Source: Mesostigma viride | Lineage: Eukaryota; Streptophyta; Mesostigmatophyceae; Mesostigmatales; Mesostigmataceae | Assembly (NCBI GenBank): GCA_009746045.1 | Contig: RPFO01000891.1 | Location: 1,080,904 to 1,144,903 of the forward strand | Direction of reading: 5' to 3' | DNA length: 64,000 bases | Part shown: positions 31,288 to 62,849 of the stretch, in pieces | Layout: every line of letters starts with the position of its first letter | Numbering within the stretch: position 1 is the first letter of the stretch | Notes under the pieces: generated by a model | What the model saw: the letters and a program-made list of their open reading frames with translations, nothing else | What the model was told of the DNA's origin: nothing | Database searches by the model: none | Program-made: the position numbers and the translations under genes

Positions 31288-31934
31288 GCGGGTGGGTGGG
31301 TGGGTGGGTGGGTGGGTGGATGGGTGGGTGGGTGGGTGGGTGGGTGGGTGGGTGGGTGGGTGGGTGGGTGGTGGGTGGGTGGGTGGGTGGGTGGGTGGGT
31401 GGGTGGGTGGGTGGGTGGGTGGGTGGGTGGGTGGGTGGGTGGGTGGGTGGGTGGGTGGGTGGGTGGGTGGGTGGGTGGGTGGTGGGTGGGTGGGTGGGTG
31501 GGTGGGTGGGTGGGTGGGTGGGTGGGTGGGTGGGTGGTGGGTGGGTGGGTGGGTGGGTGGGTGGGTGGGTGGGTGGGTGGGTGGGTGGGTGGGTGGGTGG
31601 GTGGGTGGGTGGGTGGGTGGGTGGGTGGGTGGGTGGGTGGGTGGGTGGGTGGGTGGGTGGGTGGGTGGGTGGGTGGGTGGGTGGGTGGGTGGGTGGGTGG
31701 GTGGGTGGGTGGGTGGGTGGGTGGGTGGGTGGGTGGGTGGGTGGGTGGGTGGGTGGGTGGGTGCGGGGTGGGTGGGTGGGTGGGTGGGTGGGTGGGTGGG
31801 TGGGTGGGTGGGTGGGTGGGTGGGTGCGGGGTGGGTGGGTGGGTGGGTGGGTGGGTGGGTGGGTGGGTGGGTGGGTGGGTGGGTGGGTGGGTGGGTGGGT
31901 GGGTGGGTGGGTGGGTGGGTGGGTGGGTGGGTGG
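31288..31934. repeat. (TGGG)n array
   Basis: About 645 bp of TGGG with rare interruptions (GTGGTGGG, GTGCGGGG). It joins the truncated transposase frame directly; reading on from the transposase gives a spurious Thr-His-Pro-Pro tail. G-quadruplex potential on the plus strand is high. Confidence 0.95.
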
Positions 31935-32790: not shown

Positions 32791-33194
32791 TGTGCCTACT
32801 CCGTCAGCATTCTCCCTATCTGTAAACGCAACAACCTGGATTCCCAACAGACTGCGATACTAGAAACTTCAAACCAAGGTACCTGGACGCAGCTACCCTA
32901 CCATTACTACCTAGCCACAACTGGTTATGTCACGTAGATTGGCCACCTCTAGTCTAGGTCCTGTCTGCTTCTGTCACCATTTAATAGCATCCGCATTTCA
33001 TACCAATGATTCGTCCCCTGCAAAATTAATTCGCACAACAAACGCTACAGCAGATTATTAGCAGCCGGTTGTCTCACCTGCAGCACCTCTTTAAGACATT
33101 GTAATAGCACTGATGACAGCGTGGCGTTGCTTGACAGACAATCATCATGCCTTCGGCGTACCTCTCACGCACATCAGGTTACAGTGTACAGTTT

Positions 33195-33790
33195 AGGTCG
33201 AGCTACTGTATCGATGCCTGGCCTCCGCTGGGGAAGCCTTGTCCGCGGAGATACGATGCCTGGCCTCGGCTGGGGAATATTGTATACGTTGCCTGCCTCG
33301 GCTACGGAAACCTTGTCCGCGGAGATACGATGCCTGGCCTCCGCTGGGGAAACCTTGTCCGCGGAGATACGATGCCTGGCCTCGGCTGGGGAATATTTTA
33401 TAAGATTCCTACCTCGGCTACGGAAACCTTGTCCGCGGAGATACGATGCCTGGCCTCCGCTGGGGAAAACCTTGTCCGCGGAGATACGATGCCTGGCCTC
33501 GGCAGGCTCGGCTGGGGAATATTTTATAAGATTCCTGTGTCGGCTACGGAAACTTTGTCCGCGGAGATACGATGCCTGGCCTCCGCTGGGGAAAACCTTG
33601 TCCGCGGAGATACGATGCCTGGCCTCGGCAGGCTCGGCTGGGGAATAATTTATACGTTGCCTGCCTCGGCTATGGAAAAACCTGTCCGCGGCGATACGAT
33701 GCCTGGCCTCCGCTGGGGAAAACCTTGTCTGCGGAGATACGATGCCTTGTACTAGGAAACGGACACGAAGCCTGGCTTCGGAGATACTAT
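33195..33790. repeat. Tandem array in the divergent promoter of the truncated copy
   Basis: Repeats of GAGATACGATGCCTGGCCTC, then CGCTGGGGAAACCTTGTCCG or GGCTGGGGAATATT, with unit lengths of about 55-60 bp combined into longer periods. It lies between the two divergent start codons (32790 and 33977), the same place as the 141/149-bp satellite of the intact element, but the sequence is unrelated. Confidence 0.85.
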
Positions 33791-33976
33791 AATGCCTGGG
33801 ATCCGCAACTGTCACCTCATTCAAACGCCGGATCTCCCGCCTGAGCCGGGGCTCCAGCCAGTGCCTCCGTCTTGGAATGAATTTAACGCCGGAAACGATG
33901 GTATTCGGTGCGGCTAAACGATTGTTGGCGATAATGCCGGAAGCAATGAGTAGTGCTGCGGAAAAGTGAGTAATAA

Positions 33977-36219
33977 ATGTCAGAGAGCAACGGTGATGCC
34001 TGCTTTGCAGGCGAAAAGTGTAGGAAATTGGGAGGCGGAGCATCCGAGGATGGCGTTTCTAAGGAGGAGCTCTTGAGTGGCGCCAATCACCCATGCAGTG
34101 GGTCGTGTGGAAAGCACGTCCATGGGATATGCACGGGGCTATTCAAGGACCCAAGTGCTGAAGAAGGGGCAGAATGGATGTGCCCCGAATGTTTTGCTGG
34201 GTCGTCCAAGCAAGACCAGGAAGCGACTCATCATGTCGGCAACAACCCACGTCCCCCCCTCCCGGCCGGCATCAACTTTAATGCTCCAGTTTCCGAGGAT
34301 GACCTGGCGGGGATGGTAGATCTTCATAGTAATTTGGGCGGGAAGGGCAAGGTTGCCGGGGATAAAAAGGACCGTGACGACAAGAATGACAGTGACGACA
34401 AGATGGTCGACAGTGGCGATGACGATCCGGCCAGCCGTGGTGCACACCTGGGTTCCTCCGACCTGACGGGGGACAATTCCATTGACAACGTGATGGAAAG
34501 TACCCCGGCCGACGAGCGTGGCAAAGGGTTCAGTCGCTCCGAGCTGGAGGATGCCAAGATGACATTGAAATTTCCTTCACCTGATCCACCGGTGCTCAAG
34601 ACAATGCCGGTCCAAGGTCGAAATGAGAGCACCATATCTGTGGGGGGCGGGGTTCCTGGTTTTAGGGCCGAATGCGGGATCATGGCTCGGGCCGTCGTGA
34701 ACCTTCACCCATGGAGGCAAAATGTCGGCATCATTTTGGGCGGCTGGAAAAACAAGACCATGAGCGCTCTGTTAGCCCGCGAAACGAAGAATTCGAGCTA
34801 CAAGTCGTTGCTATGTTCGTTTACTCCTTCCATGACCAGGCCCGCACCCACCGGCATCCACTTCCACAACCAAGTGGCACTCATCGTGGCCAACAACCCT
34901 CCCAAGTGGTGCGATGTCCCTGGTGTAACGTTTCCGGGTAAATCCATCCCTGCAAACGCATGGAATGATGAAATGCAGGAGTGTTTGACGTGGGCCCAGG
35001 AGAACGAGCCCAATTTAGTTGCCCTGATGGGCAATGCGCCCGTCCCAAGCATCCTGCTCAGTAACGCATTCCCGCAGCGGGCCACGATGGATCTGTGTGG
35101 TTCTCCTGATACGCCATCCCGAGAACGGCGGACACAAGACACCACCATGACCGATGCGGCACCGGCACCGCTCACGGATATCACCAACGCCGGGCTAGGG
35201 CGAGCGAAGCGAATCACCGCCAAGCAGGCCTTCCAGCCCCCCCCCCAGATGCCAAGAAGCGCCAGCCGGAGAAACGGCGCCCGGGGCCGCAGCCGTTGCA
35301 GGAGGCCCTGCCCGGCACAACGCGAGTACCAACAGAAGTGCAGGCACAACTGGAGGGTATGAAACAGCAGCAGGCCCAGCTTCTGCAAGAGGTCCAGCAG
35401 CAGCACCGACAACTCCAGCAGCAGTTGCAGCAGCAACAACAACAGCAGCAACAACAGCAGCGGCTGCTGCTGCAGCAAATGCAGCAAATACAGCAACAGC
35501 AACAGCAGCCGCCGCCGCAGCAGCAACGACAGGGGAGGCGGCAGCAGCAGGCACCGGCAGCCGAGGCCCCGCCGCCAGAAGCCCTGCCACCACCAGCACC
35601 GGCGACAGCACCGCCTTGCCTGCCACCACCAGCAGCCGTGCCGGCACCGCCTTATTACCCGCCACCACCGGCATCCACGGCGGCACCGCCTTATTACCCG
35701 CCGCCACCGGCACCCGCGGCGGCATCGCCTTATTACCAGCCGCCACCGGCACCCGCGGCGGCACCGCCTTATTACCAGCCGCCACCGGCACCCGCGGCGG
35801 CACCGCCTTATTACCCGCCGCCACCGGCACCCGCGGCGGCACCGCTTTACCAGCCGCCACCGGCACCCGCGGCGGCACCGCCTTATTACCCGCCGCCACC
35901 GGCACCCGCGGCGGCACCGCTTTACCCGCCACCAACGGCAGCCGCCCAGGCACCGTATGCGCAGCCACCGGCACAAGCACTAGGATGGTACCAGCAGGTC
36001 CTGGCACCGGCAACCGCGCCGGCACCGTTGACGCAGCCACAGTATGCGCCGGCACCATACACGCCGGCACCATACGCGCAGCCACCAGCAACTGCAGCCG
36101 CGGGATGGTACCAACAGCCACCGGCACCGGCGACATCAGCGGCTGCCGCTTGGCAGCAGCCTCCCTCGATGACATTGGCATGGCAGCCGGCACCATTGCC
36201 GCAACCTCGTTACTACTGA
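33977..36219 (+). CDS. PHD-like zinc-finger, Q/P-rich transposon protein (copy 1)
   Basis: The N-terminal metal cluster has C9, C15, C40, C44, H49, C52, W67, C69 and C72, a C4HC3 order like PHD fingers, which read histone H3 tails. Next come an acidic linker and a conserved middle (ARAVVNLHPWRQNVGIILGG, FHNQVALIVANNPPKW) shared with the 50.6-52.9 kb protein, and a basic stretch. A frameshift in a run of ten C (35237-35246) moves the frame: the first frame ends at 35362, while the continuation carries a coiled polyQ segment and about seven Pro-rich PPYYPPPPAPAAA repeats to 36219. The function is not known; it may direct integration or regulate the element. Confidence 0.75.
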
Positions 36220-36894
36220 CCGTTTTCATGTGAAGCAACCGTTTCTTGATATGGCATTCCATTGACACTATATCTAGGCTATGTGTTGCACGGATGCAAC
36301 ATGCTATTAATTATCTGGGCGTCCCGGTCATGGTAGGCTAGAGTATAATTTGTTCAAGAGGAACTCGGCGCAAAAGCCGCGGAGCTGTCTAGTCCAGGAT
36401 ATTGGACTGATTGATAAATTAAGGGCGTTATTAGCCATGCACGCCCAACAATGTCTCTTTGGACATTTTAAAATATTATACATGCACCTTGGCCATTATA
36501 ATTGGCGGCATGTGTTAGCACCAATAGCTCAGTACACCCAAGTGCATGCATGCTACATCACTACCTCAAAATTCATTGTTGGAATTGAAATGTTTCCATG
36601 CCCGGGGAGGACTTCATGCATTATGTGAGAAGATTGTATGAAATTACTGCATGGTACACTTCCCTGGCAAATACAATCACGTTCCGCGCATTAAAGTCAT
36701 CGTGTCCACGCTCATGCATTATATGGAAGTAAGCATGACATCATGAAGGGCACCGTCACGAGCATCACCCGGTAAATGTCCTGCAGGGTGGTACCAAATA
36801 GGTTGAAAACAGTTGAATACGTAGGGAATCAATGTCAGCCACATATTGGCCCGTAAAAGGGACCCAAATCAACTTATTATCTTGAGTCGGCATC
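36220..36894. other. 3' part of the truncated transposon, no gene
   Basis: AT-richer sequence after the stop of the PHD-like gene. No open frame is worth calling. It ends in the TCCTAA-containing subterminal motifs at 36895-36942. Confidence 0.5.
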
Positions 36895-36942
36895 AAAAGT
36901 GTCCTAAATTTCGCAATTTGTCCTAATCCAGCGCAACAACTC

Positions 36943-45364: not shown

Positions 45365-48300
45365 TTAATGCAATTGGTGTGTCTTCTTGTATGCTTCCAA
45401 TAAGCGGGCGCAACCCGCTAACTCAGTAGTGCGCCAGGAGTCCTCAGACTCATGCTGCGCGAATCGCCATCGCACACGGTACTGTCGCTGGGTCCCCCGA
45501 CCTCGTTTGACATCCCGGTGTCCCACGATCGCTGCCACCTCATCCTCCTGTTCCCCGTGTCCGGATTGAACTCCAACGGGGCCGGGGGATTGACCCGACC
45601 CTGAATGGTGTTCTGGTGGTACAACTTGAGCTGGTCACGATGGAAACGGTTGGACGTGAGGTTCCATGACACTGGGACGTCCACCTGGAACATGACGTCG
45701 TCAAACTTGGTGAGAACCTTGTAGGGGCCCAGGAACATGGGACGAAGCTTAGTCTTCAGCTCCTTCTCCACCTTGTGTGAGAATCGTCCGATCTGTGGGC
45801 CCTCCACCAGGACCCAATCGCCCACCTCAATGGACGGCGCCCGGTTATCCCGCTTGCCGGCTGTCCTCTCCAGATACCGCTCGGTCGCGGCGCGGTAGCC
45901 CTGGACTGCACTGTTATGAGCCTGGTGCATCCGCTGCAGCAAGCGATCAACCCCCTGGCGTGTGTCCAGCTTGACCTGATCCTCCCCAGTCCGGGGCTCA
46001 TAAGCAAGTCGGGAGGCGTGAGAGGGTGCCTGCCAGAGTTGAGGAAAAAGGGGGTAAATCCGTGGGCGGCCTGGGGGCATTGTTCAGGGAGAACTCCACC
46101 AAGCCCAGAAGTTCCTCCCAATTGCTGCCCACCGCGTCGGTGTAGTGTCGCATGGTCTCCTGCACTGTGCGGTTCAACCGCTCCACCAGATGTGACGACG
46201 AACTGTGGTAGGCCGTGCCCAGCGACACCTTGGTGCCCAGCCGTTCGAAAACTCCTGCCAGAATTTGGCCGTGAAGAGCTTGTCGCGGTCGGAGATGAAC
46301 TGTCGGCTGAGCCCGTGGAACCGGAACACGTGCGTCAGGTATATCTTGGCGCACTCCTCCGCAGTGAGGTCGGCCGGACACGGGGCCAAGTGACACATGC
46401 GCGTCAGGCGGTCCACGAACACCAGGACCATGCTGTTGCCGCTCTTCGCCTTCTTGAACGGGCCGATGAAGTCCATCATGATAGAATCCCAAGGACCCAT
46501 CGGATCAGGTAACGTCTTGGGGACGGCTTGCGAGCCCGTGTTCCTGGACTTCATGATCTGGCACGAGGGGCACTGGCGCACATATGTCTCAATATACTCC
46601 TTCATCCCTGGCCAGTAGAAATGTTTGCGGGCCCGAGGATAAAGACGGTGGCTTCCTTGATGTCCGCCTAGAAGCGAATCGTGGAGCTCGTGAAGCAAGG
46701 CGGCCCTACAAAGCTCCGGGACATACAGCCGCCATTCCTCCGGCTGGACACTCACGAACAGGCGTCCATCCTGGAACTTGCAAGGGTAGGCACCCATCTG
46801 CTGGGGATGCGCCCGGATGGCTTCAAGCGCCGCTTCCTCCGTGACCGTGAAACGACTGATCATCGTCTCCAGGTCCGACGTGACTGTGAACGCGTCCGCG
46901 GCCGGTCTGTCTCCGCGCTCGCCTGGTTGACGAATTCGGAGAAGACTGTGGGCGGGCCGATCGGCTGAAGCTGAAAAATTCCCTGGGGCGGCACCACATG
47001 GCTAAGGGGCATGCGCATATGCGATCCCTCCCCCTCCCCGGGGGCGTCCACGTCCTCGTGGGCACTCGTCTCCTCCAAGAGAGGTGACAAGTCATCGCTG
47101 GTGGTGTGTCCCAGATGAAACAGGTGGCGGGCCCGGGGAGACCGTGGCTCCGCGCCGTAGGCGGTCCCCGGGGCGGCCACTGGTACGCAAGTGGTATGAA
47201 GCACATCCATGTCCTCGTAGAACCAATAGTCCGCCCGTCGCGAAAGGGCGTCTGGCACCACGTTGTCCGCGCCCTTGACGTATTGGATCTTGAATGGCGC
47301 AAACTGTGACAAGTACTCCATCCACCGCGCTTGGCGGGGCGTCAGGTTGGGCTGCACCAGGAGGTGGGTGAGCGGCCGGTGGTCGGTGTGGATCACCAGG
47401 CGGTGGGGGTCGAGATCCCCCTGCTCACTAATGGCCACCGAAAACTGGGCCCCCAGAAGATGATGACGCCACGTGTGGCAGCTGTAGACTACTGCCAGAA
47501 GCTCCTGCTGATGCACTGGGTAATTCCGCTCCGCCGGAATCATTGTGCGTGAGATATACTCGATGGGCTGAAGACCCTTGCCTTGGTCCTGCAGGAGGAC
47601 ACCCCCGATGGCCACCTTGCTGGCGTCCGTAGCCACGACGAAAGGAAGGGCCGGGTCCGGCAGGATAAGGACTGGTGCTGTGGTGAGGTGGCGCTTAAGC
47701 GCCTCAAAAGCCTGTTGGCACTGCTCAGCCCAGAGGAACGGGGTACCCTTCTTGAGAAGAGCGTTGATCGGGCGGCGATGGTGGCAAACCGCGGGATGAA
47801 CCGTCGGTAGTAAGATGCCAATCCCAGGAAGCTGCGCACCCCTTCACGTCCGTAGGGACAGGCCATTGCTGGACGGACTCGATCTTCTCGGGTCGGTCGC
47901 GATGCCGTCTGCGGACAAGGTATGGCCCAGAAACGGCACGCAGCGGCCGGCGCGCACCTTGGCTTTCCGCGCCGAAAGGTGCTCATCCTCCATGATCTGC
48001 AGCACGGCGTCCACATCCTCTAGGTGCTCCTCGAACGTCTTGGAGTACACCAGGATGTCGTCCAGATACGCCAGCGCGCACGTGCGCTTGTAGGTCCAGG
48101 GCGGGCGCGCCCCCTTCTGCGGGTCCGCCAGGTCCTGGGAGACCTGCGGCAAGTGGGCTGTGCCCATCACCGGACGGAGGATATCATTCATCAGCATCTG
48201 GAAGGACGCCGGCGAATTGCACAGCCCCATTGCCGCCACCCGAAACTGATAGTGACCGAAGGGCGTAGCGAACGCGGTCTTGTGGCAGTCTTCTGGCGCG

Positions 48301-49765
48301 ATGCGCAGCTGCCAAAACCCGTCCGCACAGTCGATGACGGTGAAACACGTGGCCCCCTGGACACGGTTGAAGATGTCGTCGATCCGCGGTAGAGGATACC
48401 GGGACTTGACGGTGATGGCGTTCAGCTTCCGGTAATCCGTCACCAGACGCCACTTGCCTCCTGGCTTGGGAACGAGCAGCACGCCCGCTGAGAAGGGGCT
48501 GTTGCTGGGTTCAATGAGCCCCGCGTCGAGCAGTGAAATGAGGATCTTCTTGAGCTCCACCAGCTCGACTGGGCCCATGCGGTACATGGGAGACACGGTA
48601 GGACCGGAACCCTCCTGGAGCTGGACACGGTGCAACACCGATCGATTGGGAGGGAACTGGGGGGTGCGATCCGCAAAAAGGGTAGTGCGCTTCTCCAGGA
48701 CGGCATTGAACCGCGCCAGCTCATCCGGTGTGAATCCGGCACCAATCTCGTTAAGCAGAGCCTGAGTGCTATCCAGGTCTATGCGATACATCGCGTACTC
48801 CTTGCCCTTCCGAAGCTGGCGCGCCAGCGTCTTGCTACTCATCAGGATCTGGGACGCTGGTCGAGGCCCGTCCGCCGAGCGCTCGTGTGTAATGTTATGG
48901 ACCTCCGCGGCCTGTGCCCTATACTCGCTGTCAGGGCACCAGAATGAACCATCCGGAAACCAAACTACCCGCCGGCGCACACTGATGTCCACATCCTGCT
49001 TGTCCAGCCAGTCCACTCCAATGATGATGTCGGCAGCGCCCAGCGGCGCAATAGTCGCCACCAGGTCCACCGGCGTGCCCTGCAGCACACCCTTGATGTC
49101 TGCTAGGCCCGGCGATTGGTGTCGCCGACCGTCTGAGTAGGTGACATAGACTGCCGTGGTGTGAGGCCGGGGTACCAGGCCCAGCCGACGCACCAGGGCC
49201 TCGTTGATGAAGGACGTGGAGGCGCCGGTGTCGACCAGGAACTTCACGTCCATGATCGTTTTCTCCTTCAAATACGGATCAAGGACGGTGGGAGGGACCA
49301 ATAACCCTCCGCTGAAAAGGAACAGATGCCGCGAATCTCCTTGAGATGCACGCGCCGCCGGTTGGGTGGACGCGTCTGCGGCCACGTTATTGACGTCTAC
49401 CTCTACTCTAGTTGACTCCGCGTCTGGGCTACCATCTGATTTGTCTACCCTATCCCCTACCCCGGGACCCAAGCCCATGGGCAGGGCTACTACTCCCGAG
49501 GAACGGTGGGACGGGAGGCCGCCTCGCCCGACCACCCGCCCTCTTCCCCCCCCTCCTCCTCTTCGTCCGCCCCCTCCTCGTCGTCATACTCGTAGCCAGC
49601 CACTGCCTGCGTTTGGCCGGAAGAGGAGGACTGTCGCCGCGCCTCCATCTCGTTGACCGCACGCAACACGCCCTTGGTAGAACTGGTCGCGGGTGGTCGC
49701 GGCTGCTGGTACTGCGTCGGGACCTGTCTGGCGTGCTGCAGGCGAGCCGCACGCTCACCCGCGTT
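45365..49765 (-). pseudogene. pol: Chromovirus pol: protease, RT, RNase H, integrase, chromodomain
   Basis: Protease FLVDTGASTSFI (about 49240) with IIIGVDWL; RT with VPKPGGKWRLVTDYRKLN, FTVIDCADGFWQLRI and YLDDILVYS (about 48060); RNase H with VVATDASKVAIGG, a Glu in HQQELLAVV and VIHTDHRPL; integrase with H-x-H and C-x2-C (GGHQGSHR, RQCPSCQIMK), D in MMDFIGPF, D in FISDRDKLF, E in SSHLVERLNRTVQE. The end is a chromodomain (EDEVAAIVGHRDV ... YRVRWRF ... EDSWRTTELAGC), reached through a one-base loss in a G-run near 45558. At least six frame changes occur (near 49500, 47880, 47780, 46860, 46240, 46080, 45558). Domain order RT-RH-IN-chromo defines a chromovirus. Confidence 0.85.
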
Positions 49766-49794
49766 GGGTGGTTTTACCGGATTAGGATACATTT
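49766..49794 (+). repeat. Left terminal inverted repeat
   Basis: Starts GGGTGGTTTTACCGGATTAG and ends GATACATTT; exact reverse complement of 60770-60798. Followed by TTTTG and a second TTAGGATACATTT (about 49800-49812). Confidence 0.9.
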
Positions 49795-49799
49795 TTTTG

Positions 49800-50565
49800 T
49801 TTAGGATACATTTGATGCACTGTGCAGTTTTCAGATGTGTTTGAGGGGGTTGATTGCGCCTAACATGCATTTTATTGAAGCAATGAGTTTCCCAAGATAT
49901 ACATGATATAAACTAAGACAATTGACCCATTAAGGCAATGAGACAACATCAATAAGACAACTTATGCCAATTGAATAAGACAACTCAACCTTACAGGACG
50001 TTGGGCCATCATACGTCCGGAATAATTGTCTCACTTATTACATAACCAAACTTTTTGAGGGATCGCCATGGTTGCATGGTTTCAACACATGCGCCCTGCA
50101 CTCATGTGCATCAAAGGTGTTGCGTCTAGTGCCAACTCAGTGTCAAAGAACTGATTCAATCATATTTCCCCCGTGGCCATGAAGGCCCACATGAGTTAAA
50201 CATGGCCGAGAGTGATTGCATCATCCTTCTTGGCGACATCGGTCTTGACGACGTCGATGGGGAAGACGGCAGCACCTGCATGTGAACAAAAGAATCCATG
50301 AATTGTGGCATCCAAAGGCAACAACATATTAGCATCCCATTGAACACGCAGCCACGCTGACCCGGCCATCCAGCCGCCCACGCAGCCACAAAGCCAGCCA
50401 GCCACGCAGTGACGCACCCACCCAGCCACACATCCACGCATCCACGCACCCGGCACCCCCCCCAGCCAGCCAGCCAGCCAGCCACGCAGCCACGCAGCAG
50501 CGCAGCCACGCAGCCACGCAGCCACACAGCCACGCACCCTCCTTTCCAGCCAAGCAGCCACGCAG
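49800..50565. other. Left subterminal region and low-complexity 3' flank
   Basis: AT-rich stretch with repeated ATAAGACAAC / AATGAGACAAC words at 49915-49990, then AGCCACGCAGCCACGC-type repeats at 50340-50560. Short open frames here reflect the repeat and are not called. Confidence 0.6.
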
Positions 50566-51370
50566 TCACACAGTCAACCCCCCCATCCCCCCCCCCCCCC
50601 CCCCCCCCCACCCACCCCACCCCCCACCCCACCCACCCACCCCACCCACCCACCCCACCCCCCACCCCACCCACTCAACACTACACGAATGACTCACAAA
50701 GAACTGCTGCACCACCGATGATCCCTGCGGGAACTGCTCTGCTGCCGACGGTCCCTGCGAAAACTGCTGCAGTGCCGACCATGCCTGTGGAATCTGCCAC
50801 ATTGCCGACGCTGCCTGCGGGAACTGAAGCGCTGCTGGTGACGCCAGCTGTAACTGAAGTGCTCCCGACGATGCCTGCGGGAACTGCTGTGTTGCCGGTG
50901 ACGCCAGCTGTAGATGAAGCACTGCCGACGATGCCTGCGGGAACTGCTGCTGCTGCTGCTGCGGGAACTGCTGCTGCTGCTGCGGGAACTGCTGCTGCTG
51001 CTGCGGGAACTGCTGCTGCTGCTGCGGGAACTGCTGCTGCTGCTGCGGGAACTGCTGCTGCTGCTGCGGGAACTGCTGCTGCTGCTGCGGGAACTGCTGC
51101 TGCTGCTGCGGGAACTGCTGCTGCTGCTGCGGGAACTGCTGCTGCTGCTGCGGGAACTGCTGCTGCTGCTGCGGGAACTGCTGCTGCTGCTGCGGGAACT
51201 GCTGCTGCTGCTGCGGGAACTGCTGCTGCTGCTGCGGGAACTGCTGCTGCTGCTGCGGGAACTGCTGCTGCTGCTGCGGGAACTGCTGGTGCTGCTGCTG
51301 CTGCTGCGGCGGCGGCTGCGGGAACTGCTGCTGCTGTTGCTGTAGCTGTTGCTGTAGCTGTTGCTGTTGC

Positions 51371-51466
<96 letters not shown>

Positions 51467-52935
51467 AGTTGCTGCTGCAGTTGCTGCTGCTGCTGCTGCA
51501 GTTGCTGCTCCAGCTGGACCACTTGTTTCTGCACCTCTTTGTACAGCTGCAAACCAAGCTGTTCAACCTTCTTGCTTTGGTTCTCCATAGCTCGTTGCAT
51601 CTCTCTCATCGTCTGTTCCACGCCCACCAGTACGGGGGTCGGCGGCGGCAGCGGCTGGGTACGCTCTGGCTGGGTGCGCTCTGGCTGCCGGCGTTTCTCT
51701 GCCGGCTGGGAGGACTTGGCTTTGCTGTTCCGCTTGGGTCGCTGTTGTGCGTTGGTGACGTCCACCAAAGGCGTGGCTGCCTCTGGGGGCTTCACTATGG
51801 GCGGGAGGGCACGCACTCGCATCCCCCGGCTAGGCGCCGGAGGCCACGCCGCTGCAGCAGGACCTGAATACAAGGCAAGGGCGGGGTCCCTAGGAAATCC
51901 TGTTGTCAAGATGCATGGGACCTCAGCGAGGAAGTCCCATGTCATCTGGGACACCAGCTCACCTTGGTGCGACTGGGCCCAGGCGAGAGTGCGCTCAATA
52001 CGCTCGTTTCGCGCACTCTCCGGAAATGTGTCAACTACCTTGAATCCGGGGATGTGCCCAGTGGCAGGGTCACGATCGACGACCATGCACACCACATCTG
52101 TCATCTTGATGGTAGAGGATCTCCCCCGTGCCGCATTTGTGTATGCCGATTTTAATGTTTTCTTTGTTGTGTAGGTCGTTTGGGCGACCAGCACCGCTTG
52201 CAGCTGTTTGTCGATGGTGAGGCCCCCCACCACCACCCCGAGGGTATCCCAGCCAGAAATTTCCACGACAGACAGTGCCATCGGTCCACTGCGGCTAAAA
52301 GACCTTGCAGTAGGGACCGGCGTGCCATCGTCCCGCTTTTCAGGAACGCCGGCCTCAGGTAGAGGGGAAGAGAACAGAGCCTCCTTAGTGGCGTCCAGCC
52401 CCGAACCCGGGTTTGAATGACCATGCTCGTCGGCAGGACGCTGAGGAGACATCGGGGAATCTTTCTCGTTTGTCGCATTTGCAGCCCCATCATGATGGAA
52501 GTCATCCTCTGCCATTGCAGCTTCATCATCACAACCGACATCATCATCGAAATTCAGGTCATCCTCGGTGACGGGCGGGCGAAACGAATTATCCGGGCAC
52601 TCTGGGCTGATAGTGGAAGGCTCCGTGGGCTTAATGTTGCTAGTGTGCCCTGGCTGCTCGAGCGTGGCGCACGGCTGGCATCGTGGAGGGCCGCCGCAGT
52701 CAGAGCATTGCCATTCCGTGCCGTCACCGTCGTCTGCGTGCCTGAAAATATGCGTACAGATGCCGTGCAGGACCTTGCCACATCGGCCGGCGCATTGGTG
52801 GTTTGCACCGGCCAAAAAATCTACTTTCATGGCACCAGGTTTCTTTCCTAGCACCCATTTTCTACAATCGTCCCCGGCATAACACAAATCACTCAATTCG
52901 TCCATGTCATCGCTTCGGCTATCAGCATCGGGCAT
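50566..52935 (-). CDS. PHD-like zinc-finger, polyglutamine transposon protein (copy 2)
   Basis: 789 residues, one unbroken frame. The N-terminal zinc cluster has C18, C24, C48, C52, H57, C60, W75, C77 and C80 (C4HC3, PHD-like), close to copy 1 around GANHQCAGRCGKVLHGICT. An acidic linker follows, then a conserved core (DTLGVVVGGLTIDKQLQAVL, TLAWAQSHQGELVSQM) shared with copy 1, a Pro/Lys/Arg segment (residues 400-430), and a predicted coiled coil (MREMQRAMENQSKKVEQLGL). Then come a pure Gln run of over 40 residues and about 16 QFPQQQQ heptads encoded by 21-bp repeats (50930-51300). The C-terminal 40 residues are read from a C-rich tract (50580-50680) and may not be real. Divergent from the transposase gene, 1.7 kb apart. 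Confidence 0.8.
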
Positions 52936-53039
52936 AGTTCCCGTGGCTAGTGCCCATCACCTTCCACCTTGAGCGGGGCGAAGTCACGAATTCAAGCGCG
53001 AAGTGCATTTGAATCAAGCGGGAACTGGGTGACACTGCT

Positions 53040-54120
53040 TGAAGACAGGTGAAGACGCGGTGAAGACGTGAAGACGTGAAGACGTGAAGACGTGAAGACG
53101 TGAAGACGTTCAGACACGATACGGCAAGTTCAGGTGAAGTTCAGGTGTTCAGGTGAAGCCGTGAAGACGTGAAGCCGTGAAGCCGTGAAGACGTGGTGAA
53201 GACAGGTGAAGACGCGGTGAAGACGTGAAGACGTGAAGACGTGAAGACGTTCAGACACGATACGGCAAGTTCAGGTGAAGTTCAGGTGTTCAGGTGAAGC
53301 CGTGAAGACGTGAAGCCGTGAAGCCGTGAAGACGTGGTGAAGACAGGTGAAGACGCGGTGAAGACGTGAAGACGTGAAGACGTGAAGACGTGAAGACGTT
53401 CAGACACGATACGGCAAGTTCAGGTGAAGTTCAGGTGTTCAGGTGAAGCCGTGAAGACGTGAAGCCGTGAAGCCGTGAAGACGTGGTGAAGACAGGTGAA
53501 GACGCGGTGAAGACGTGAAGACGTGAAGACGTGAAGACGTTCAGACACGATACGGCAAGTTCAGGTGAAGTTCAGGTGTTCAGGTGAAGCCGTGAAGACG
53601 TGAAGCCGTGAAGCCGTGAAGACGTGGTGAAGACAGGTGAAGACGCGGTGAAGACGTGAAGACGTGAAGACGTGAAGACGTGAAGACGTTCAGACACGAT
53701 ACGGCAAGTTCAGGTGAAGTTCAGGTGTTCAGGTGAAGCCGTGAAGACGTGAAGCCGTGAAGCCGTGAAGACGTGGTGAAGACAGGTGAAGACGCGGTGA
53801 AGACGTGAAGACGTGAAGACGTGAAGACGTTCAGACACGATACGGCAAGTTCAGGTGAAGTTCAGGTGTTCAGGTGAAGCCGTGAAGACGTGAAGCCGTG
53901 AAGCCGTGAAGACGTGGTGAAGACAGGTGAAGACGCGGTGAAGACGTGAAGACGTGAAGACGTGAAGACGTGAAGACGTTCAGACACGATACGGCAAGTT
54001 CAGGTGAAGTTCAGGTGTTCAGGTGAAGTCGTGAAGACGTGAAGACGTGGTGAAGACAGGTGAAGACGCGGTGAAGACGTGAAGACGGGAAGACGTGAAG
54101 ACGTGAAGACAAGTTCAATG
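53040..54120. repeat. Satellite of alternating 141/149-bp units in the divergent promoter
   Basis: Seven copies of CAGACACGATACGGCAAGTT occur at 53111, 53252, 53401, 53542, 53691, 53832 and 53981: spacings 141, 149, 141, 149, 141, 149. The 8-bp difference is one extra GTGAAGAC in every second unit, giving a 290-bp higher-order repeat. Each unit is itself built from GTGAAGAC/GTGAAGCC octamers and AAGTTCAGGTG words. Confidence 0.95.
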
Positions 54121-54149
54121 CAGCACTCAGCCGCAGCAGTCGCACGCAG

Positions 54150-54627
54150 GTAGAAACGAGTATTGCTGCTTGAATCTTATAATTCCTATCGAATGTAAAA
54201 CAGGCTTTTCGTAAAGAAATCCGATGTGTGGGCGGGCTTTACATAGTTGCGATTTCTGGCCTGCGATTTCTGGCCTGCGCTGGTTGTCTCTTTGATAGTG
54301 CTTCTGCCCAAGCACTACCGGCTGTAAAACAGTATACTTCTTGAAGAAATCAGTTGGGGCTTTGTTGGGCGTCACATTTGACCGGTGGGCGGAGTTTCCT
54401 GCTTCTGTGAAGGCGCCATCGAATGTAGATCAGTAGATTTTCTAAAGAAATCTGAGGTGTGGGCAGGGCCTTTATTGCTTGTGTCCATCCACCACCGGAT
54501 GTAGAACAGTAGACTTATTGAAGAAATCAGTTTAGGGTTTTGTTGGGCGCCACATTTGAGCGGTGGGCGGGGTTTCTTGCTTCTGTCCAAGCACCACCGG
54601 GTGTAATACAGTAGATTTCCTATTAAC
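54150..54627 (+). promoter_or_regulatory. Degenerate tandem repeats upstream of the transposase start
   Basis: Four diverged units of roughly 110-130 bp, each with a version of CACCACCGG.TGTA.AACAGTAGA, TTGAAGAAATCAG and GGGCG..ACATTTGA.CGGTGG, the last ending 14 bp before the ATG at 54628. Repeats of this kind next to a transposase start could hold promoter or transposase-binding sites; that is inference. A short piece of the SINE-like repeat (54250-54297) is embedded. Confidence 0.55.
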
Positions 54628-57600
54628 ATGGATGAAGAATGGGATGTGCCAGACCTGGTGGATTCGGATGCGAGTTCTGAAGCTAGTTGGGGCGGGGATT
54701 CTGACGGCTCTGACGACGACCTGCTTCACACGGAAATGGGGCCCGGCACGTCTTCCTCTCGAGCGAACCGCAGTGGGAAGAAAGATGGCGCCCGGCTTCT
54801 CGCCTCCAAATTGAAGTCCGTTGACAAGGACATCGCCAAGGCCAGGAAGTGCGGTCCGACTTGTGGGGAGCATTGCCTCGAGAAGGTGGGCACCTTACTT
54901 ACCGATACCAGGTCGTGGACTGCCTTTCGAGAGTACCTGTACAACCAAACGGACCAGCAGCGCATGGCCTCCCTTTGCGACGTGATCCGGTCGGCCGGCG
55001 TGGGCAACATCGAGGTAGAATCCCCTGCCGACGGTGGCCGTTACAAGAAGTACATCATTACCGGCCCTTTACACGTGGACGTGGTGATTGCGGGGTGCAT
55101 GTACACCGTCACCGGTTGTGCATCTGCCATCCGGAAGATGGCCGGCGTTACCCGGGCGACTTGGAACAATCTGGTGGCGTCGGTCGTGTCGGCGAAAGAG
55201 TATTTCCTGACTGTGCATCCCAACGACCTAGCGACTTTCGGTGTTGGTCTGGAGCACGCACCACCTGAGCGTGATGCTCGGGGGCGTTCGGAGGTTGGCG
55301 AACACGCAGCAATGTGGATGCACGAGTTGGTGCAGCAGATCGCAGACCATGACCCGACTCATGCTGGCGTTGTCTTCATGGACGTCATGTCCATCAAGGA
55401 GATGCACGCCATGTACGTTGAAGACGTGGTGGCAGAAGCGGGGGAAGGGGCCAAGGTGCTAGGCTACAACGCATTCTACCGCATCTGGCGCACCTACTGC
55501 AAAGGCGACTACTTCCCAGGGCAGAGGAGCCCGAAGGTGGTGGTATGCCCGCACAACAAGAGCACCGGTCACTGCGCGGACTGCGTGGAACTGCGCATGC
55601 GGCGCCGCGGTGCTTCAACTGAGGCACAACGGCAGTACGTCGACAACCAAATCAAGCAACATGTCGCTCTGGCCTGGTTTACCCGCCAGAACTATTGGTT
55701 GAGGCGCGAGCTTGCCTGCGCGATGGTGGCCGCTATGTTGACGGCCATTTTGTCGATCAACCTCGACAAGCTGGATCACGCCAAGACATACTGGCCGAAG
55801 CTGGTGGGGGGGCCCGACTCATGGGGCAGCTATGCAGGTGGCATGATGCCGTTCTCGCTCTTCTGTGCGGCCGTCCATGGGTACAAGGCGATGTGGTTCA
55901 TCGTTCTCGCATGGGTCCTCATGACCGACAACCTCTCCGGCAGTGTCACCGTCACGATGCTGATGCACATCCTGGCGCAGTTGATGAGGGACCAGCCATG
56001 GAGGAGGGCGGGGCTGCCGCACATGCCCAGGTGTTTGTGCCTGCAACTGGACGGTGGGAGTGAAAACCGGAATCACACCGTCTTACTGTTTGCATGGTGG
56101 CTCGTACACGTTGGCTTCTTCGACGTCGTCGAAATGCACCGCATGCTCGTGGGCCACACGCACGCCGACCCAGATCAGAAATTCGGCGTGCTTGTGGCCT
56201 ACATGAGACACGCTGTGGCGGGGGGGCCTAGCTTCGTGCACAAGTACCCAACTTTGGAGAGCTGGGTGGCGGCCATAGAAGAGGCATTCAGTCAGCCTAG
56301 TGGTGCAGCTGCGAACTGCAACTCGACCGTCCCCGCTGGCACGGAGGTCAAGGTATTGGGGTGCGCTTACGATGTCAGGAACTTTCTCACTCCGTTGCAG
56401 CGCGAGTCGTTTGCCGGTTGGTGCAGCACGGTAGATTGGATGACCGGTAGGGAGGATCAGGTTATCAAGGTCACCAGGGTGCGTGGTGATGTCGTGCAGC
56501 CTGCGTGCAGCGAGGCGCAGCCGGCGCACGGAGGGGCGGCGCCATCGGTGCGCGGCGGGGCGGCAGCGGCGGCGCAGCCGGCACGCGGCGGGGCGGGGCA
56601 GTCAGCGGGCAGCGGGGCGGCGCTGCCGGTGCGCGGCGGGGCGGGGCAGTCGACGGGCGGCGGGGCAGGGCCGTCGACGGGCGGCGGGCCAGCGGTGCTG
56701 CCGGCGCGCGCGGGCGGCGGGGCGGGGCTGTCGACGGGCGGCGGGGCGGGGCAGTCGACGGGCGGCGGGGCAGGGCCGTCGGCGTGCGGGGGGCCAGCGG
56801 TGCTGCCGGCGCGCGTGGGCGGCGGGGCGGGGCAGTCGACGGGCGGCGGGGCGGGGCAGTCGGCGCGCGGGGGGCCAGCGGCGCTGCCGGCGCGCGCGGG
56901 CGGCGGGGCGGGGCTGTCGACGGGCGGCGGGGCGGGGCAGTCGGCGCGCGGGGGGCCAGCGGCGCTGCCGGCGCGCGCGGGCGGCGGGGCGGGGCTGTCG
57001 ACGGGCGGCGGGGCGGGGCAGTCAGCGGGCAGCGGGGCGGCGCTGCCGGTGCGCGGCGGGGCGGGGCAGTCGACGGGCGGCGGGGCAGGGCCGTCGACGG
57101 GCGGCGGGCCAGCGGTGCTGCCGGCGCGCGCGGGCGGCGGGGCGGGGCTGTCGACGGGCGGCGGGGCGGGGCAGTCGACGGGCGGCGGGACAGGGCCGTC
57201 GGCGTGCGGGGGGCCAGCGGTGCTGCCGGCGCGCGTGGGCGGCGGGGCGGGGCAGTCGACGGGCGGCGGGGCGGGGCAGTCGGCGCGCGGGGGCCAGCGG
57301 CGCTGCCGGTGCGCGCGGGCGGCGGGGCGGGGCTGTCGACGGGCGGCGGGGCGGGGCAGCCGGCGCGCGGGGGGCCAGCGGCGCTGCCGGCGCGCGCGGG
57401 CGGCGGGGCGGGGCTGTCGACGGGCGGCGGGGCGGGGCAGTCGACGGGCGGCGGGGCAGGGCGGTCGGCGTGCGGGGGGCCAGCGGCGCTGCCGGCGCGC
57501 GTGGGCGGCGTGGCGGGGCTGTCGACGGGCGGCGGGGCGGGGCAGTCGGCGCGCGGGGGGCCAGCGGCGCTGCCGGCGCGCGTGGGCGGCGGGGCGGGGC

Positions 57601-59621
57601 AGTCGACGGGCGGCGGGGCGGGGCTGTCGACGGGCGGCGGGGCGGGGCAGTCGACGGGCGGCGGGGCAGGGCCGTCGGCGTGCGGGGGGCCAGCGGCGCT
57701 GCCGGCGCGCGTGGGCGGCGGGCCGGCGCAGCTGGCATGCGGCGGGGCGGGGCTGTCGACGGGCGGCGGGGCGGGGCAGTCGACGGGCGGCGGGGCAGGG
57801 CGGTCGGCGTGCGGGGGGCCAGCGGCGCTGCCGGCGCGCGTGGGCGGCGGGCCGGCGCAGCTGGCATGCGGCGGGGCGGGGCTGTCGACGGGCGGCGGGG
57901 CGGGGCAGTCGACGGGCGGCGGGGCAGGGCGGTCGGCGTGCGGGGGGCCAGCGGCGCTGCCGGCGCGCGTGGGCGGCGGGGCGGGGCTGTCGACGGGCGG
58001 CGGGGCGGGGCAGCCGGCGCGCGGCGGGCCGGCGGCGCAGCCGGCGGGCGGCGGAGCGGCACAGCCGGTGCCTGAAAAACGCGGTCGCTCAATGAAGGTG
58101 CACCACGCGGTCTTCTTCCAGGTACAGGGCAACGCAGAGACCTGGTTGTCCTACCGGACCACGGAGTCCCAAAAGACGCCGTGGCAGCCCGCGGGGACTC
58201 GACAGGAAGGCGCGCCACGGTGCGGGAAGGCGATGACACAGCCTTACAAGTTTGATGCGGAGGGGCGGCCGCTGTTTGGCGTCCGACTTGTGGATCCAGA
58301 CCGCATTCCGATGTTGCAGGACACCCCAGCCTTCGCACCATTGAACATGGAGTTTCTGGGGAAGGAGCTGGAGTCGATCAAAACAAGGGTCCAGAAGTTG
58401 CCCCATGGCATCTGGCAGTGGTACTTTCCGCCCGACACCATCAAGCCAAACGAGGCCTTTTTCGCAAAAGTCCCACATGCCCCTGAGGAGGTGCCTGAGG
58501 AGTGGCGCCCTTTGCCGTGGCCATCTCGCGCGGACATCTCCGCCCTGCGTGAGCACGATGCAGCGCCTGAACCACCACCGACGCAAGAAGAGCACTTCAT
58601 GGCGTTGGTCGACGCAGAGGCGGTGCGCGTCACCCCGCTGGTAGACCGAGTTCTTCATGATGGCCACACACAGCAGGAATGGGCGGCAGAAGACAGGGCC
58701 ATGACAGCCAAGGTCGCTTACTTGAAGCGCATGCAAGGCGTTGAGAAAGGCTCCGCTGTTCTATACTGGCACCCTTCAGCTGGTATTCTCTGCAACTCGA
58801 AGCTCACGTGGACTCCAGTCCTCTTTGGCATCATCAAGGAGGTGGTTGCGAAGGAGGATGGCGGCCAACCTTCTATTGAGCTCTTTGTATACCGCGCTAA
58901 GCATTTGCGTGACACGTGGCACCCGTGGAACCCAGACATTGCGCAATGGCCCCATCCGCCAACCACTGCGGCGCACACGGTGATCATCACCGCGTCAGAC
59001 CTCGTCTTGACACAAGTGGTGGGCAAGCGAGGTCAGCCGCCCCATGCAGTCTCCTTGGGTGCGAACAAAAAGCTCACCAAGGAGTGCCTAAAGGCGCTGA
59101 AGGAGGTGCCCTGTGACGCGGAACACCCGGTCGTGAAGTGGCAAGATGCTGAATGCTCGAAGGGCATCGTCGGCATGGCGAAGGCATGCTGGGAAGGCAT
59201 AACGCTGCAGGTCAAGAGTGGCAGCCGCAACCTCGTAGGGCAAGTCGTGTGTCATTGGGCGTCGGAGCGTGTGACATCCGCGGACGGTCGCACCGAAAGC
59301 CGGGACGGCAGGTACCATGGTCGTGTCGCTGTTGTCGACACGCAAAACGACATGGTAGCCATGTACTGGGGTGCCCGTTGGGAGGAGGACGCGGTTTCTT
59401 GCGTGCCTCTCCACGAGCTGGAGGCACAGATCTGCGGGTGCCCCGGTGTGGTCGTCCCTGCGTTGCAAGCGCCGGATATCACCCTGGCCGAGGCTCGATT
59501 GCGCGAGATGGTTCCACCCAGCGACGATGTGGCGGAGAACAACAACGCAGGCGCCTCCCGGCGTCGGAAGCGAGCGCTCATCCTTGCCGATGACGATGAC
59601 GACGACGACGACGACTGCTGA
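54628..59621 (+). CDS. Large DDE-type transposase with Gly/Ala-rich spacer
   Basis: One frame of about 1,664 residues if a single lost G at about 57286 (five instead of six G in a repeat) is allowed for; as given, the first frame stops at 58095. Acidic N-terminus; putative first catalytic Asp D252 (VVFMDVMSIKEMH); a Cys/His cluster C307, H309, C316, C319; second block LQLDGGSENRNH (D475, E479); third block VGHTHADPDQKFG (H510, H512, D514, D516). The D-x-x-S/x-EN-N ... VGHTH-x-D-x-D pattern is that of a broad eukaryotic transposase-like family (DUF7869-like, from memory). Residues about 625-1150 are repeats of GGGAGQST/GGPAALPAR. The C-terminal 500 residues are unique, with two Tudor/SH3-like stretches (GSAVLYWHPS, GRYHGRVAVVDTQND) and an Asp-rich end. 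Confidence 0.75.
56500..58075 (+). repeat. GC-rich coding minisatellite within the transposase
   Basis: About 1.6 kb of shuffled 18- to 45-bp units (GCGGGGCAGTCGACGGGCGG, CGGGGGGCCAGCGGCGCTGC and relatives). Larger blocks repeat, for example about 56600-56870 and 57020-57290. All six frames stay open because of composition; only the plus frame continuous with both flanking domains is taken as coding. Confidence 0.9.
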
Positions 59622-60769
59622 AGCGCGAGCAGCGGTTGTTGTCATTGAGCTGCTCATGTGCTGCTGCTGCTGCTGTGCTGCCATGCTACTGTTGCTGCAT
59701 TGCTGCCGTGCTGCTGTTGTGCTGTTGTGCTGATGTGTTGCTGCATTGCTGCCGTGCCGCTGATGTATTGCTGTCGTGCTGCTGTGTTGATGCACTGCTG
59801 CATTGCGGCCGTGCTGCTGAGCTACAGTTGTGCTGCTGCTGTGCTACGGTCATGCTGCTGCTGTGTTGCTGGGCTGATGTGTTGTTGCATTGATGTAGTG
59901 GCTATTGTTCCGCTACTACAATTTGCTACTGATGCCGCTGCTGGTGCTTTTTTGCATGGCAGTGCCCGCTATGTTCACACCACTGTTGCCGCGGTTGGTG
60001 TCGCGTGATTTCCACCGGTTGTGCGTTGACATGTGTTACTCATGCATTTCCCGCTATATTTGGTAGCACGCGGTTTCACGTTAGTTAGGTGCAGACAGCT
60101 GCATGTAGACAAACATCTTGTTTAAGTCGGTCAATTGACGGTTCTTGACGCATCATGGTCCAAGTCGACCGACCTGTAGGGACCAGTAGAGCAATTGTCT
60201 AGGAGAAAGAGCGTGATCGCTGCAGAAGCCGCGTGGCAGCCGTGGCTGTACCTGTAGTACGACCTGCATATATATGGATACTGTATTTGGATACTGGGTT
60301 GTTTATCAATTCTGGTTTTAATTTATTTAGTGTACCTGGTGTTGGCATGCCAACTCAGTGCTAAACTACTTTATGCACAATGATGCAACTTGATGCTATA
60401 GTGACGTGCCACGATGTAACTTTATTAACTTCACCATTAGTCATGGGGTCAATAGGATTGCTCATTATGCCATGTTAACATGAACCATGGGTTACGTAAT
60501 AGTGAAAACAGTAATCATGATGCTCCACTTGAAGTCTCCAACATGGTCATGTTTGGAATTTTATTGATCATATTTACAATATATGAAAAGAGACAACAAA
60601 CGTGGAAGCATGGCACGCCGAGGCCGATAATATATGTGTGAAATATGAAAAGAGACAACATCTTTGGCAAGCATGATCATATCATGCTTGCCAAACATAT
60701 GAATGATATCGACCATGTCCAGAAACCATGTTTGCCAATGGTGCATTTAGGATACATTTGAAGCCGTGC
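59622..60769. other. 3' flank of transposase: CTG-rich tract, then AT-rich subterminal DNA
   Basis: 59640-59950 is built from GCTGCTG/GTGCTG words, possibly transcript 3' UTR. From 60050 the DNA is AT-richer, with TGAAAAGAGACAACA repeated at 60583-60597 and 60646-60661 and CATGATCATATCATG near 60673. No gene is seen. Confidence 0.5.
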
Positions 60770-60798
60770 AAATGTATCCTAATCCGGTAAAACCACCC
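60770..60798 (-). repeat. Right terminal inverted repeat
   Basis: Exact reverse complement of 49766-49794. It is preceded at 60748-60760 by TTAGGATACATTT, which with the terminus forms a hairpin around GAAGCCGTGC. Confidence 0.9.
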
Positions 60799-62464
60799 GT
60801 TGCGGGGGCGGTCCCGAGGACCGGAGGAGTCGGGTCGGCTGCCGAAGGCCGGGCCGGAGAAACGAACACTGGGTGTCCCTTCTCCTGTCCCACGACTGGC
60901 GTTCTTGCCCCGGAGCTTGGGGCAGTCGCGCTTGAGGTGCCCCACCTCGCTGCACATGAAGCAGCGCGCCTTGCTAGCGTCGATCGCGTTGACACCATGT
61001 TCAGTGTAGCTCTCGTCAGGGTCGTCGAGGTACTCGTCCTCCTCCTCGCCGGTGAACTCAGTGGAGTACATCTGATTCACCCGTCGCGGGGGAGCAGGTC
61101 TGAAGAAACGGCGCACTGAGGGTGCACGCCCGCGAGCCACTACGTCGGCCACCTGTAGGAGATACCTCTGGATATTCAAGATGTCCCACTCTTCCCAAGG
61201 GATATCAGCATAGTGCTTGAATACCTCGTCCTGCAGCTCAGGGCAGAGTGCCTCGATGAACCTGCTCTTGTACTCGTACCAGGTCATGTCAGCCAGGTAG
61301 GCGGCGCTGGACTCGAACTTAGACAGAAACTCGCGATATGGGGTGGTCCCCTGGCGCAGCTTGCTGAAGGCCATCCGCTCGTGGAGTGTAGCATCTGGGG
61401 GCACCAGCTTGCGACGCACTCGGTCCATCAGTTCCGCCACGGTTTGCGGGTATGACTGGGACGCGATGCTCTCACAGTTCAAGATGCTTATCACCGAGGG
61501 GTCCATACAGGTGTTAATCACCAGATCAATCAGATCGCTGGTGGCCAGCTGCCAGTTGTGATGGTTGCGCCAGATGGTATACTGCCGTCGCCACATGCGT
61601 CCCCATTCCTCTACCTCGCGCGGTTTCATGTCCGCGTGCAGCTTGGGTACATTCTTGAAATTGGGCATCGGCGGGGCCTTTACCGCGGCGGTGATGGGCC
61701 CACCGACGTCTACGTGGGGAAACTCGCCGAAGTCGGGGGGCTGCGGTCGGGGGAGAGAGCTGGATCTGGGCGGCGTACCATGAGTCCGCCGCACCTGGAC
61801 GGAAGAGGGGTGTTCGTACCCCGGGTCATCCAAGGCCACCCTGCTGAAGCTGAAGTTGCCAGCAGGCGCAGGCGAGTGGACCGCGCTGTGGTCAAGCACC
61901 CGTGGGCGCTGCGGTTGATGCGCCGGGCGCTGAACTGGCGTGTGAGTCTCCTCGTCCCTGGAAGTGACACTGCTCCTGGTCTCCCCTGGGCTTGTCCGTG
62001 GTCTATGAGTACCAACGGGCGGGCCCTGCGTGGCTGTTCCCTCGTCCGCCTCGTTAGTCCCTTCCAGATCATCGAACTCGCCATCTGCCCCTGGGACCTC
62101 CCCTTCCTCGTCCGAATACCATAGCGCAGTGGGTAACAGGGACGTGCTGCCGAAGGACACTCTGCGTCTGCCCCGGTGTGGGGGGCCCGGTGGAGGTCCC
62201 TGGGGCCGCCCCCGACCTGCCCAAGGATGCGTTGGCCGCCCGGTGACTGGCTGCTGATGGCGGTAGTGCAGGGTATCTTCATTCTCGTCTCTCTGCTGCT
62301 CTGGATCAGGTGGTAGCCATTGTGGTCTCGTCTGGGGTTGTTGCTGCTGCATCCGGGGTTGCTGCTGTTGCCATTGCTGCTGCGTTGACCGTTGCTGCTG
62401 CTGATGCTGCTGCTGCTGTTGCTGCTGCTGCGGTTGTTGTTGCTGCTGCTGCTGCTGCTGCTGT

Positions 62465-62499
<35 letters not shown>

Positions 62500-62849
62500 C
62501 TGTCATGCTGCTGCTGTGGTTGCTGCTGTTGCTGCTGTTGCTGCTGCTGCGAGTAGTCTTGGAGCCTCTCTCGGTCGTTCCTGTCATCTCCCTGCCTTGT
62601 TAAGGCGTCTAGATTGTCCCCATCCGCTGGGAACCTAGGGTTCTGATCTCTGGATCGTGAAGAGCCTTCCGCAGGTCTCTCCATGACCTCACCTGTATCT
62701 GTCCCTGCTTGGACGTGCAGTGGTACCTCTATCCCCTCTGTACCGTGCTCGTGGTTGTCTACCGGTTCTACCTCTGTATTCTCTAGATCTCGTTCTCTAG
62801 TCTCTTCCTCTGTATCTCTGGCGTTCCTTGTTTGGGACCGTGTGGGCAT
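60799..62849 (-). pseudogene. gag: Chromovirus gag with CCHC zinc knuckle
   Basis: The start at 62849 (MPTRSQTRNARDTEEETRE) begins an acidic, then Gln-rich N-terminus; CAG/CTG repeats at 62340-62560 pass through three frames before the main frame (62352 onward). Then a Pro/Arg linker, a capsid-like retrotransposon gag domain (PKLHADMKPREVEEWGRMWR, ATLHERMAFSKLRQGTTPYR, ADMTWYEYKSRFIEALCPEL), an acidic spacer, and a C-x2-C-x4-H-x4-C knuckle (CFMCSEVGHLKRDC) for RNA binding. Gag would continue in frame into pol but is cut by the 11-kb transposon at 60798. Gag packages element RNA into cytoplasmic particles. Confidence 0.85.
62340..62565. repeat. CAG/CTG microsatellite in gag
   Basis: Mixed CTG/TTG triplets, encoding polyQ in the gag frame and Ser/Asn or Ala in the other frames. 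Frame slips within it break gag. Confidence 0.9.

Follow-up and report, generated by a model that had tools for sequence, protein, structure and literature searches.

A probable cut-and-paste transposon lineage with a DUF7869 protein and a head-to-head partner gene in Mesostigma viride

The window analysed here is a stretch of 64,000 nucleotides from the streptophyte alga Mesostigma viride (contig RPFO01000891.1). It contains an element, E1, which we regard with high confidence as a member of a multi-copy lineage of cut-and-paste DNA transposons built on a DUF7869 transposase and moving by the mechanism proposed below. The lineage is probably an undescribed cut-and-paste superfamily. E1 has two divergent genes between terminal inverted repeats (TIRs), and its features are as follows.

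49766-60798: E1, whole element
49763-49765, no strand: left GTT target-site duplication, equal to 60799-60801
49766-49794, plus strand: 29-bp TIR on the side of the partner gene, identical to the right TIR at 29 of 29 positions
49801-49815, plus strand: direct repeat of the inner TIR motif, 19 bp further in
50566-52935, minus strand: partner gene, 789 residues, with a PHD-like C4HC3 N-terminus, a middle domain and a tail rich in polyQ/PQ
53040-54110, no strand: tandem repeat of 141/290-bp units between the divergent genes
54628-56583, plus strand: transposase, N-terminal and catalytic part, with a CxxC 64 residues before D380, and D380, D475 and D516
55936-56400, plus strand: match to DUF7869 (PF25273), residues 437-591, E 1.2e-16
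56490-58058, plus strand: GC-rich repeat linker, inside which the frame of E1 is broken
58059-59621, plus strand: transposase, C-terminal part, 520 residues, without a Pfam family at E ≤ 10
60747-60761, plus strand: repeat of the inner TIR motif, in inverted orientation to the right TIR
60770-60798, minus strand: 29-bp TIR on the side of the transposase, pairing with the left TIR
60799-60801, no strand: right GTT target-site duplication, equal to 49763-49765

Ends and empty sites of E1

A preliminary description of this DNA had placed perfect 29-bp TIRs and a GTT duplication at the ends of E1, and both were observed directly. No third match to the TIR was present in the window at up to 3 mismatches, with an expectation of 0 from shuffling. 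The element interrupts a retrotransposon on the minus strand, for which Pfam gave matches to reverse transcriptase, aspartyl protease and zinc knuckle and a sub-threshold match to gag.

45418-49583 and 60821-62502, minus strand: interrupted retrotransposon, with at least 40 copies 98-99% identical spanning the insertion site

When E1 and one GTT were removed in silico, the gag frame crossed the junction and reached a stop near 49490. The pol frame (47844-49583) overlaps gag and lies in the -1 frame relative to it. The restored gag-pol frame of the preliminary description is therefore to be read as a restored gag frame with a gag/pol overlap, and not as a single fused frame. This overlap resembles the arrangement for programmed frameshifting.

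The joined flanks of E1 were searched against the genome, and the best 40 of 433 candidate places were scored. All 40 matched query bases 1-300 at 98-99% identity. Because the matches span just 299-301 genomic bases, these places hold no insert, and they are empty sites of the E1 insertion. TIRs, duplications and empty sites agree that E1 is a DNA transposon with its ends exactly where they had been placed. Like TIR-type class II transposons in general, the mapped DUF7869 families have inverted repeats at both ends and a duplication of constant length, with empty sites checked for E1 alone.

Copies of the E1 family

With up to 2 mismatches, the 29-bp TIR of E1 matched the genome at 527 places (258 forward, 269 reverse), and the reversed-pattern control gave 0. 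DUF7869 itself had 275 candidate places in the genome, and each of the best 150, which were scored, exceeded the cut-off. The 100 TIR places listed include 36 adjacent plus/minus pairs. Eight of these enclose a scored DUF7869 match and span 10.5-12.4 kb; the other 28 are without one, and 22 of them span 8.8-10.1 kb. Flanks were read for 21 of the 36 pairs, and the 3-bp duplications were identical in 17 (10 of 11 and 7 of 10; binomial P 1e-27). Copies with other boundaries had been named in advance as evidence that would count against the preliminary description, and the pairs inspected keep the same ends.

One TIR pair of 9.1 kb, L075, is flanked by a TAC duplication and had no match to window positions 54623-56495 (transposase start and core) or 51691-52760 (partner middle and end of the PHD-like motif). 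It is an internal deletion derivative that keeps both ends. An assignment of the 28 pairs without a scored DUF7869 match to another superfamily was dropped, since L075, the single one read inside, is such a derivative. A candidate sixth family on contig C1912 (L116) was likewise rejected, being a decayed copy of the E1 family.

The DUF7869 transposase

The core of the E1 transposase matched DUF7869 with 61.4 bits against a Pfam cut-off of 26, in agreement with the family name suggested in the preliminary description. The cut-off was exceeded in all five families described below (F1, F2, F3, F5 and F6, with E1 in F1). We aligned 13 DUF7869 proteins from Mesostigma viride and from elsewhere, and D380, D475 and D516 (E1 numbering) were invariant in 13 of 13, with D514 nearly so. 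D380 stands at the start of the profile match in the contig L002. The residues D252, D475 and D514-516 had been proposed earlier as the catalytic set; D475 and D516 hold in this alignment, and D514 nearly holds, whereas D252 is doubtful. Its column is acidic in all eight rows that reach it (4 Asp, 4 Glu). Because every one of the 13 sequences has Asp at D380 and the D252 column is a mixture of Asp and Glu, D380 is the better first candidate, and D380/D475/D516 is the probable catalytic triad. D252 may also be catalytically relevant. The Glu of the motif GHTHEDID in relatives is replaced by Ala, Leu or Ile in the families of the alga and is therefore unlikely to be catalytic.

The spacing from D380 to D475 is 91-101 residues, that from D475 to D516 is 40 in all five families, and a CxxC precedes D380 by 58-64 residues in the scanned transposase pieces. 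The three invariant Asp residues stand in this order, and the fold is putatively RNase H-like. Stretches like the C-terminal part of the E1 protein were seen by eye in the transposases of F2 and F5. The transposase region of E1 is 99.86% and 99.80% identical over 3.5 kb to those of its two closest copies, and this near-identity points to recent movement.

A piece of E1 as the sole protein query found no relatives. A small alignment of E1 with the contigs L002 and L003 as query found 13 DUF7869-related proteins, two of them from Mesostigma viride itself; a jgi/Mesvir1 protein of 99 residues was 98% identical to E1 across the aligned part in the profile search. The viral sequence collection contained no relatives of the E1 proteins. 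Three matches were obtained from the contig collection, L001, L002 and L003, of which L001 reads as a chance match and was rejected. L002 and L003 have the look of eukaryotic contigs and sit in Bacteroidetes bins. Because their DUF7869 genes have intron-like breaks, they are probably eukaryotic contamination; L002 yielded no good TIR.

Five families with mapped ends

Ends were mapped in F1, F2, F3, F5 and F6. The five families share the DUF7869 protein, an open reading frame (ORF) head-to-head with it on the opposite strand (PHD-like in four, in one of these by eye) and a 3-bp duplication. The window itself contains a second, truncated element, E2.

31255-36942: E2, truncated relative of E1 in which the gene pair and a single terminus survive
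31936-32790, minus strand: E2 transposase, N-terminal part, 42% identical to that of E1 over 231 aa (E 1e-54), cut off by (GGGT)n
33977-36219, plus strand: E2 partner gene, read in two frames (33977-35362, 35110-36219) and lying head-to-head with the transposase
36891-36942, minus strand: surviving E2 terminus, with a TIR at 36915-36942 and a direct motif 19 bp inward

A (GGGT)n run takes the place of the missing part of E2, and (GGGT)n also starts immediately outside its surviving end. A complete F2 copy on contig C887 has the terminal 28 bases of E2 at one of its ends; this copy is 10,188 bp long, its TIRs agree at 27 of 28 positions, it is flanked by an ATG duplication, and it is the one copy on which F2 rests. 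F3, on contig C1, is 9,397 bp long, and its TIR begins GAGGGGATTCATA. Its boundary was fixed by removing a single base, which puts CGG on its flanks; so set, it gave 3-bp duplications in 10 of 10 other pairs, drawn from 100 listed of 278 TIR matches. Units of an inverted repeat of about 170 bp lie inside the F3 TIRs on both sides (L066, 5522-6135; L064, about 5040-5721). F5, also known from one copy, is 10,364 bp long with TIRs matching at 30 of 30 positions and a TTG duplication. F6 is 8,904 bp long, with TIRs matching at 30 of 30 positions at least and a TAT duplication; its ends come from one copy and its genes were read in a separate copy, L069. The F6 TIR had 263 matches in the genome, and 28 of 100 listed were exact.

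The target of E1 is palindromic (CCCGC-GTT-GCGGG), and a general palindromic target was considered and rejected (45 of 160 paired positions, P 0.2). The insertion sites of F1 and F3 have a weak context, with G at -2 in 15 of 32 and C at +2 in 17 of 32.

Architecture of the ends

The ends were compared over their outer 75 bases in one copy per family. An inner TIR motif, at about positions 16-28, is repeated directly and exactly 19 bp inward at one end in all five families. The repeated motif is TTAGGAYA in F1, F2 and F5, TTTGCTCAATT in F3 and AATGTACTCC in F6. As the motifs differ between families, it is the 19-bp step that is conserved while the sequence of the motif varies. Shuffling gave P values at lag 19 of 5e-5 (F1), 3.5e-4 (F2), 1e-4 (F3), 2.4e-3 (F5) and 3.5e-4 (F6); at any lag from 12 to 41 they were 0.0005 (F1), 0.0055 (F2), 0.002 (F3), 0.08 (F5) and 0.012 (F6). 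At the opposite end, the best second copy of the motif is inverted in all five families, with shuffle P values of 0.0007 in F1, 0.03 in F2, 0.10 in F3, 0.0007 in F5 and 0.002 in F6. The axis of the inverted pair, taken post hoc as the sum of the start positions, is 58-59 in F1, F2, F3 and F5 and 48 in F6. This arrangement across five families, with a direct motif at 19 bp at one end and an inverted copy at the other, is apparently new.

In each of the 11 F1 pairs tested, one end is of the direct and one of the inverted type; common descent by itself could account for this. RAG recombination joins two unlike ends under the 12/23 rule, which serves here as an analogy only. It is possible, if somewhat short of likely, that DUF7869 marks an undescribed eukaryotic superfamily in which only unlike ends, one with the direct 19-bp pair and one with the inverted pair, are joined, and which would be an independent counterpart of the 12/23 rule with a head-to-head PHD-type partner as well. 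Part of the end data speaks against such a rule. In F5 a direct repeat as good occurs at some lag with P 0.08, and, with F1, F2 and F5 sharing one motif, the 19-bp step is backed by three types of sequence. The inverted pair is solid in F1, F5 and F6 but weak in F2 and non-significant in F3, which weakens the asymmetry rule. The direct end also lies on the transposase side in F6 and on the partner side in F1, F2, F3 and F5.

Proposed mechanism

The transposase would bind the inner TIR motif together with its second copy. Because the two sites are direct, at a 19-bp step, in one end and inverted in the opposite one, the ends are unlike and would be paired as left and right. The transposase would then cut at the TIR tips and join them to the target with a 3-bp stagger, from which the 3-bp duplication would follow. 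The partner, with its PHD-like zinc motif and long Gln-rich tail, may be an accessory subunit that either aids assembly of the ends or directs insertion by reading chromatin. Copies that lack the gene cores and keep the ends would be mobilized in trans. The ends, duplications, empty sites, gene pair, copy number, deleted copy and end architecture are direct observations, whereas the fold, the catalytic residues, the binding sites, the role of the partner and present-day activity are deduced. The 290-bp higher-order tandem repeat between the E1 genes is possibly a regulatory region.

DUF7869, of no known function in Pfam, is thereby placed in mobile elements with mapped ends. The lineage also offers as a resource a transposon with hundreds of TIR copies in a single genome, a deleted form that retains its two ends, and an end code that can be read. 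If the asymmetry of the ends is functional, this would be a second natural case of a transposase and a PHD-type partner required to join unlike ends, and it would bear on the origin of RAG-like rules.

Alternatives and comparison with known transposons

Against the assignment of E1 to a mobile lineage with this mechanism stand several results. Four of the 21 pairs read had no matching 3-bp duplication, for which recombination between copies or assembly error could be the cause. E1 had been called intact-looking, which its transposase contradicts: the long frame is interrupted within the GC-rich repeat and leaves two overlapping frames, 54607-58095 and 56490-59621. The break may be a sequencing error of the assembly; in the two closest copies the frame stays open here for 1669 codons. 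A profile search of the Protein Data Bank with the transposase gave no match. The two genes described earlier, a DUF7869 transposase and a divergent PHD-like/polyQ partner, are both present, with the Pfam PHD matches of the partner sub-threshold in F1, F2 and F5 (E 0.025, 0.0046 and 0.024; E1 itself 0.025). The opposite-strand ORFs of F6 had no PHD match and no demonstrated kinship to the other partners.

The partner might also be a passenger, a captured host gene or a silencing decoy, dispensable for transposition. Its tail is of low complexity, and between E1 and E2 it has diverged further (about 29% identity) than the transposase N-terminus has (42%, as above), both of which suit a passenger. 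An opposite-strand ORF head-to-head with the transposase is nevertheless present in five of five families, and the C4HC3 pattern of Cys and His opens the partner in F1, F2 and F5, and by eye in F3. We therefore consider a passenger unlikely and favour an accessory subunit. Slightly less unlikely is that Repbase or Dfam already lists the lineage by some name, in which case the novelty would be confined to its anatomy. For annotation of the Mesostigma viride repeats, Repbase was used together with de novo tools, as stated in the consulted part of PMC6947507; DUF7869 is unmentioned in the literature searched, and no description of such an element was found among the matches listed in the literature searches.

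Among named groups, CACTA/EnSpm (CMCT) is one of the closest. In the portion of PMC2613891 consulted, CACTA elements have 3-bp duplications, two required proteins, asymmetric subterminal repeats and deleted derivatives. The CMCT group is characterized, in a section of PMC12730594, by mostly CA..TG ends, by the motifs C(2)C and H(3-4)H located after the second D and before the last E, and by duplications of 2-5 bp. Like these elements, the DUF7869 elements combine a 3-bp duplication, within that range, with a transposase and a second protein, near-end repeats and deleted derivatives, so that E1 might be a very divergent member with a TNPD-like transposase and a TNPA-like DNA-binding partner; layout and deleted copy are indeed similar. 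The ends, however, are GGG, GAG or CCC and not CA..TG, and a CxxC is absent from up to 400 residues past D475 in pieces of the five families (those of F1 and F6 being shorter). No CACTA transposase was among the Pfam families at E ≤ 10, the genes are head-to-head and the motif step is fixed at 19 bp. Membership in CACTA is thus improbable.

Still less probable is membership in PIF/Harbinger or another known superfamily with 3-bp duplications, such as Zator. PIF/Harbinger has a 3-bp target of TWA type, and Zator elements have 3-bp duplications. PIF/Harbinger (PHIS) shares with E1 the TIRs, the 3-bp duplication and, in some lineages, two proteins. The relevant section of PMC12730594 gives 3 bp for canonical Harbinger and two proteins for the Nuwa lineage, and Zator is related to TP36/IS630-type transposases in the part of PMC7386202 consulted. 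The duplicated triplets of our elements vary widely: the 18 F1 sites gave 13 distinct sequences, all 11 F3 sites differed, and TTA/TAA was found at 5 of 18 F1 sites and at 0 of 11 F3 sites. In Pfam at E ≤ 10, neither the two E1 transposase pieces nor the partner matched a named DNA-transposase family, and no Harbinger DDE or Myb family was among the matches of the E1 proteins. The earlier statement that E1 matches neither the CACTA nor the PIF/Harbinger layout is upheld by the ends and C(2)C in the one case and by target and domains in the other.

Transib and RAG differ in having a 5-bp duplication, where the E1 lineage has one of 3 bp. The likeness is in the layout: in the RAG1L/RAG2L-type transposon (TransibSU) a transposase stands head-to-head with a PHD partner, as described in the part of PMC4411706 consulted. 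The E1 partner had no Kelch match in Pfam, and the E1 lineage has no CMCT C(2)C motif at the expected place. KDZ elements (Zisupton/Kyakuja) duplicate 7-8 bp according to the same limited portion of PMC12730594, whereas the DUF7869 elements duplicate 3 bp.

Other features of the window

Elsewhere in the window, an integrase-like ORF occupies 5368-6675 on the minus strand, and its C-terminus is PHD-finger-like by eye (CQICHRVDQPEVMLLCDHCNCGWHLHC). Tandem arrays of 43-bp and 97-bp units lie at 23235-23750 and 24653-26495.

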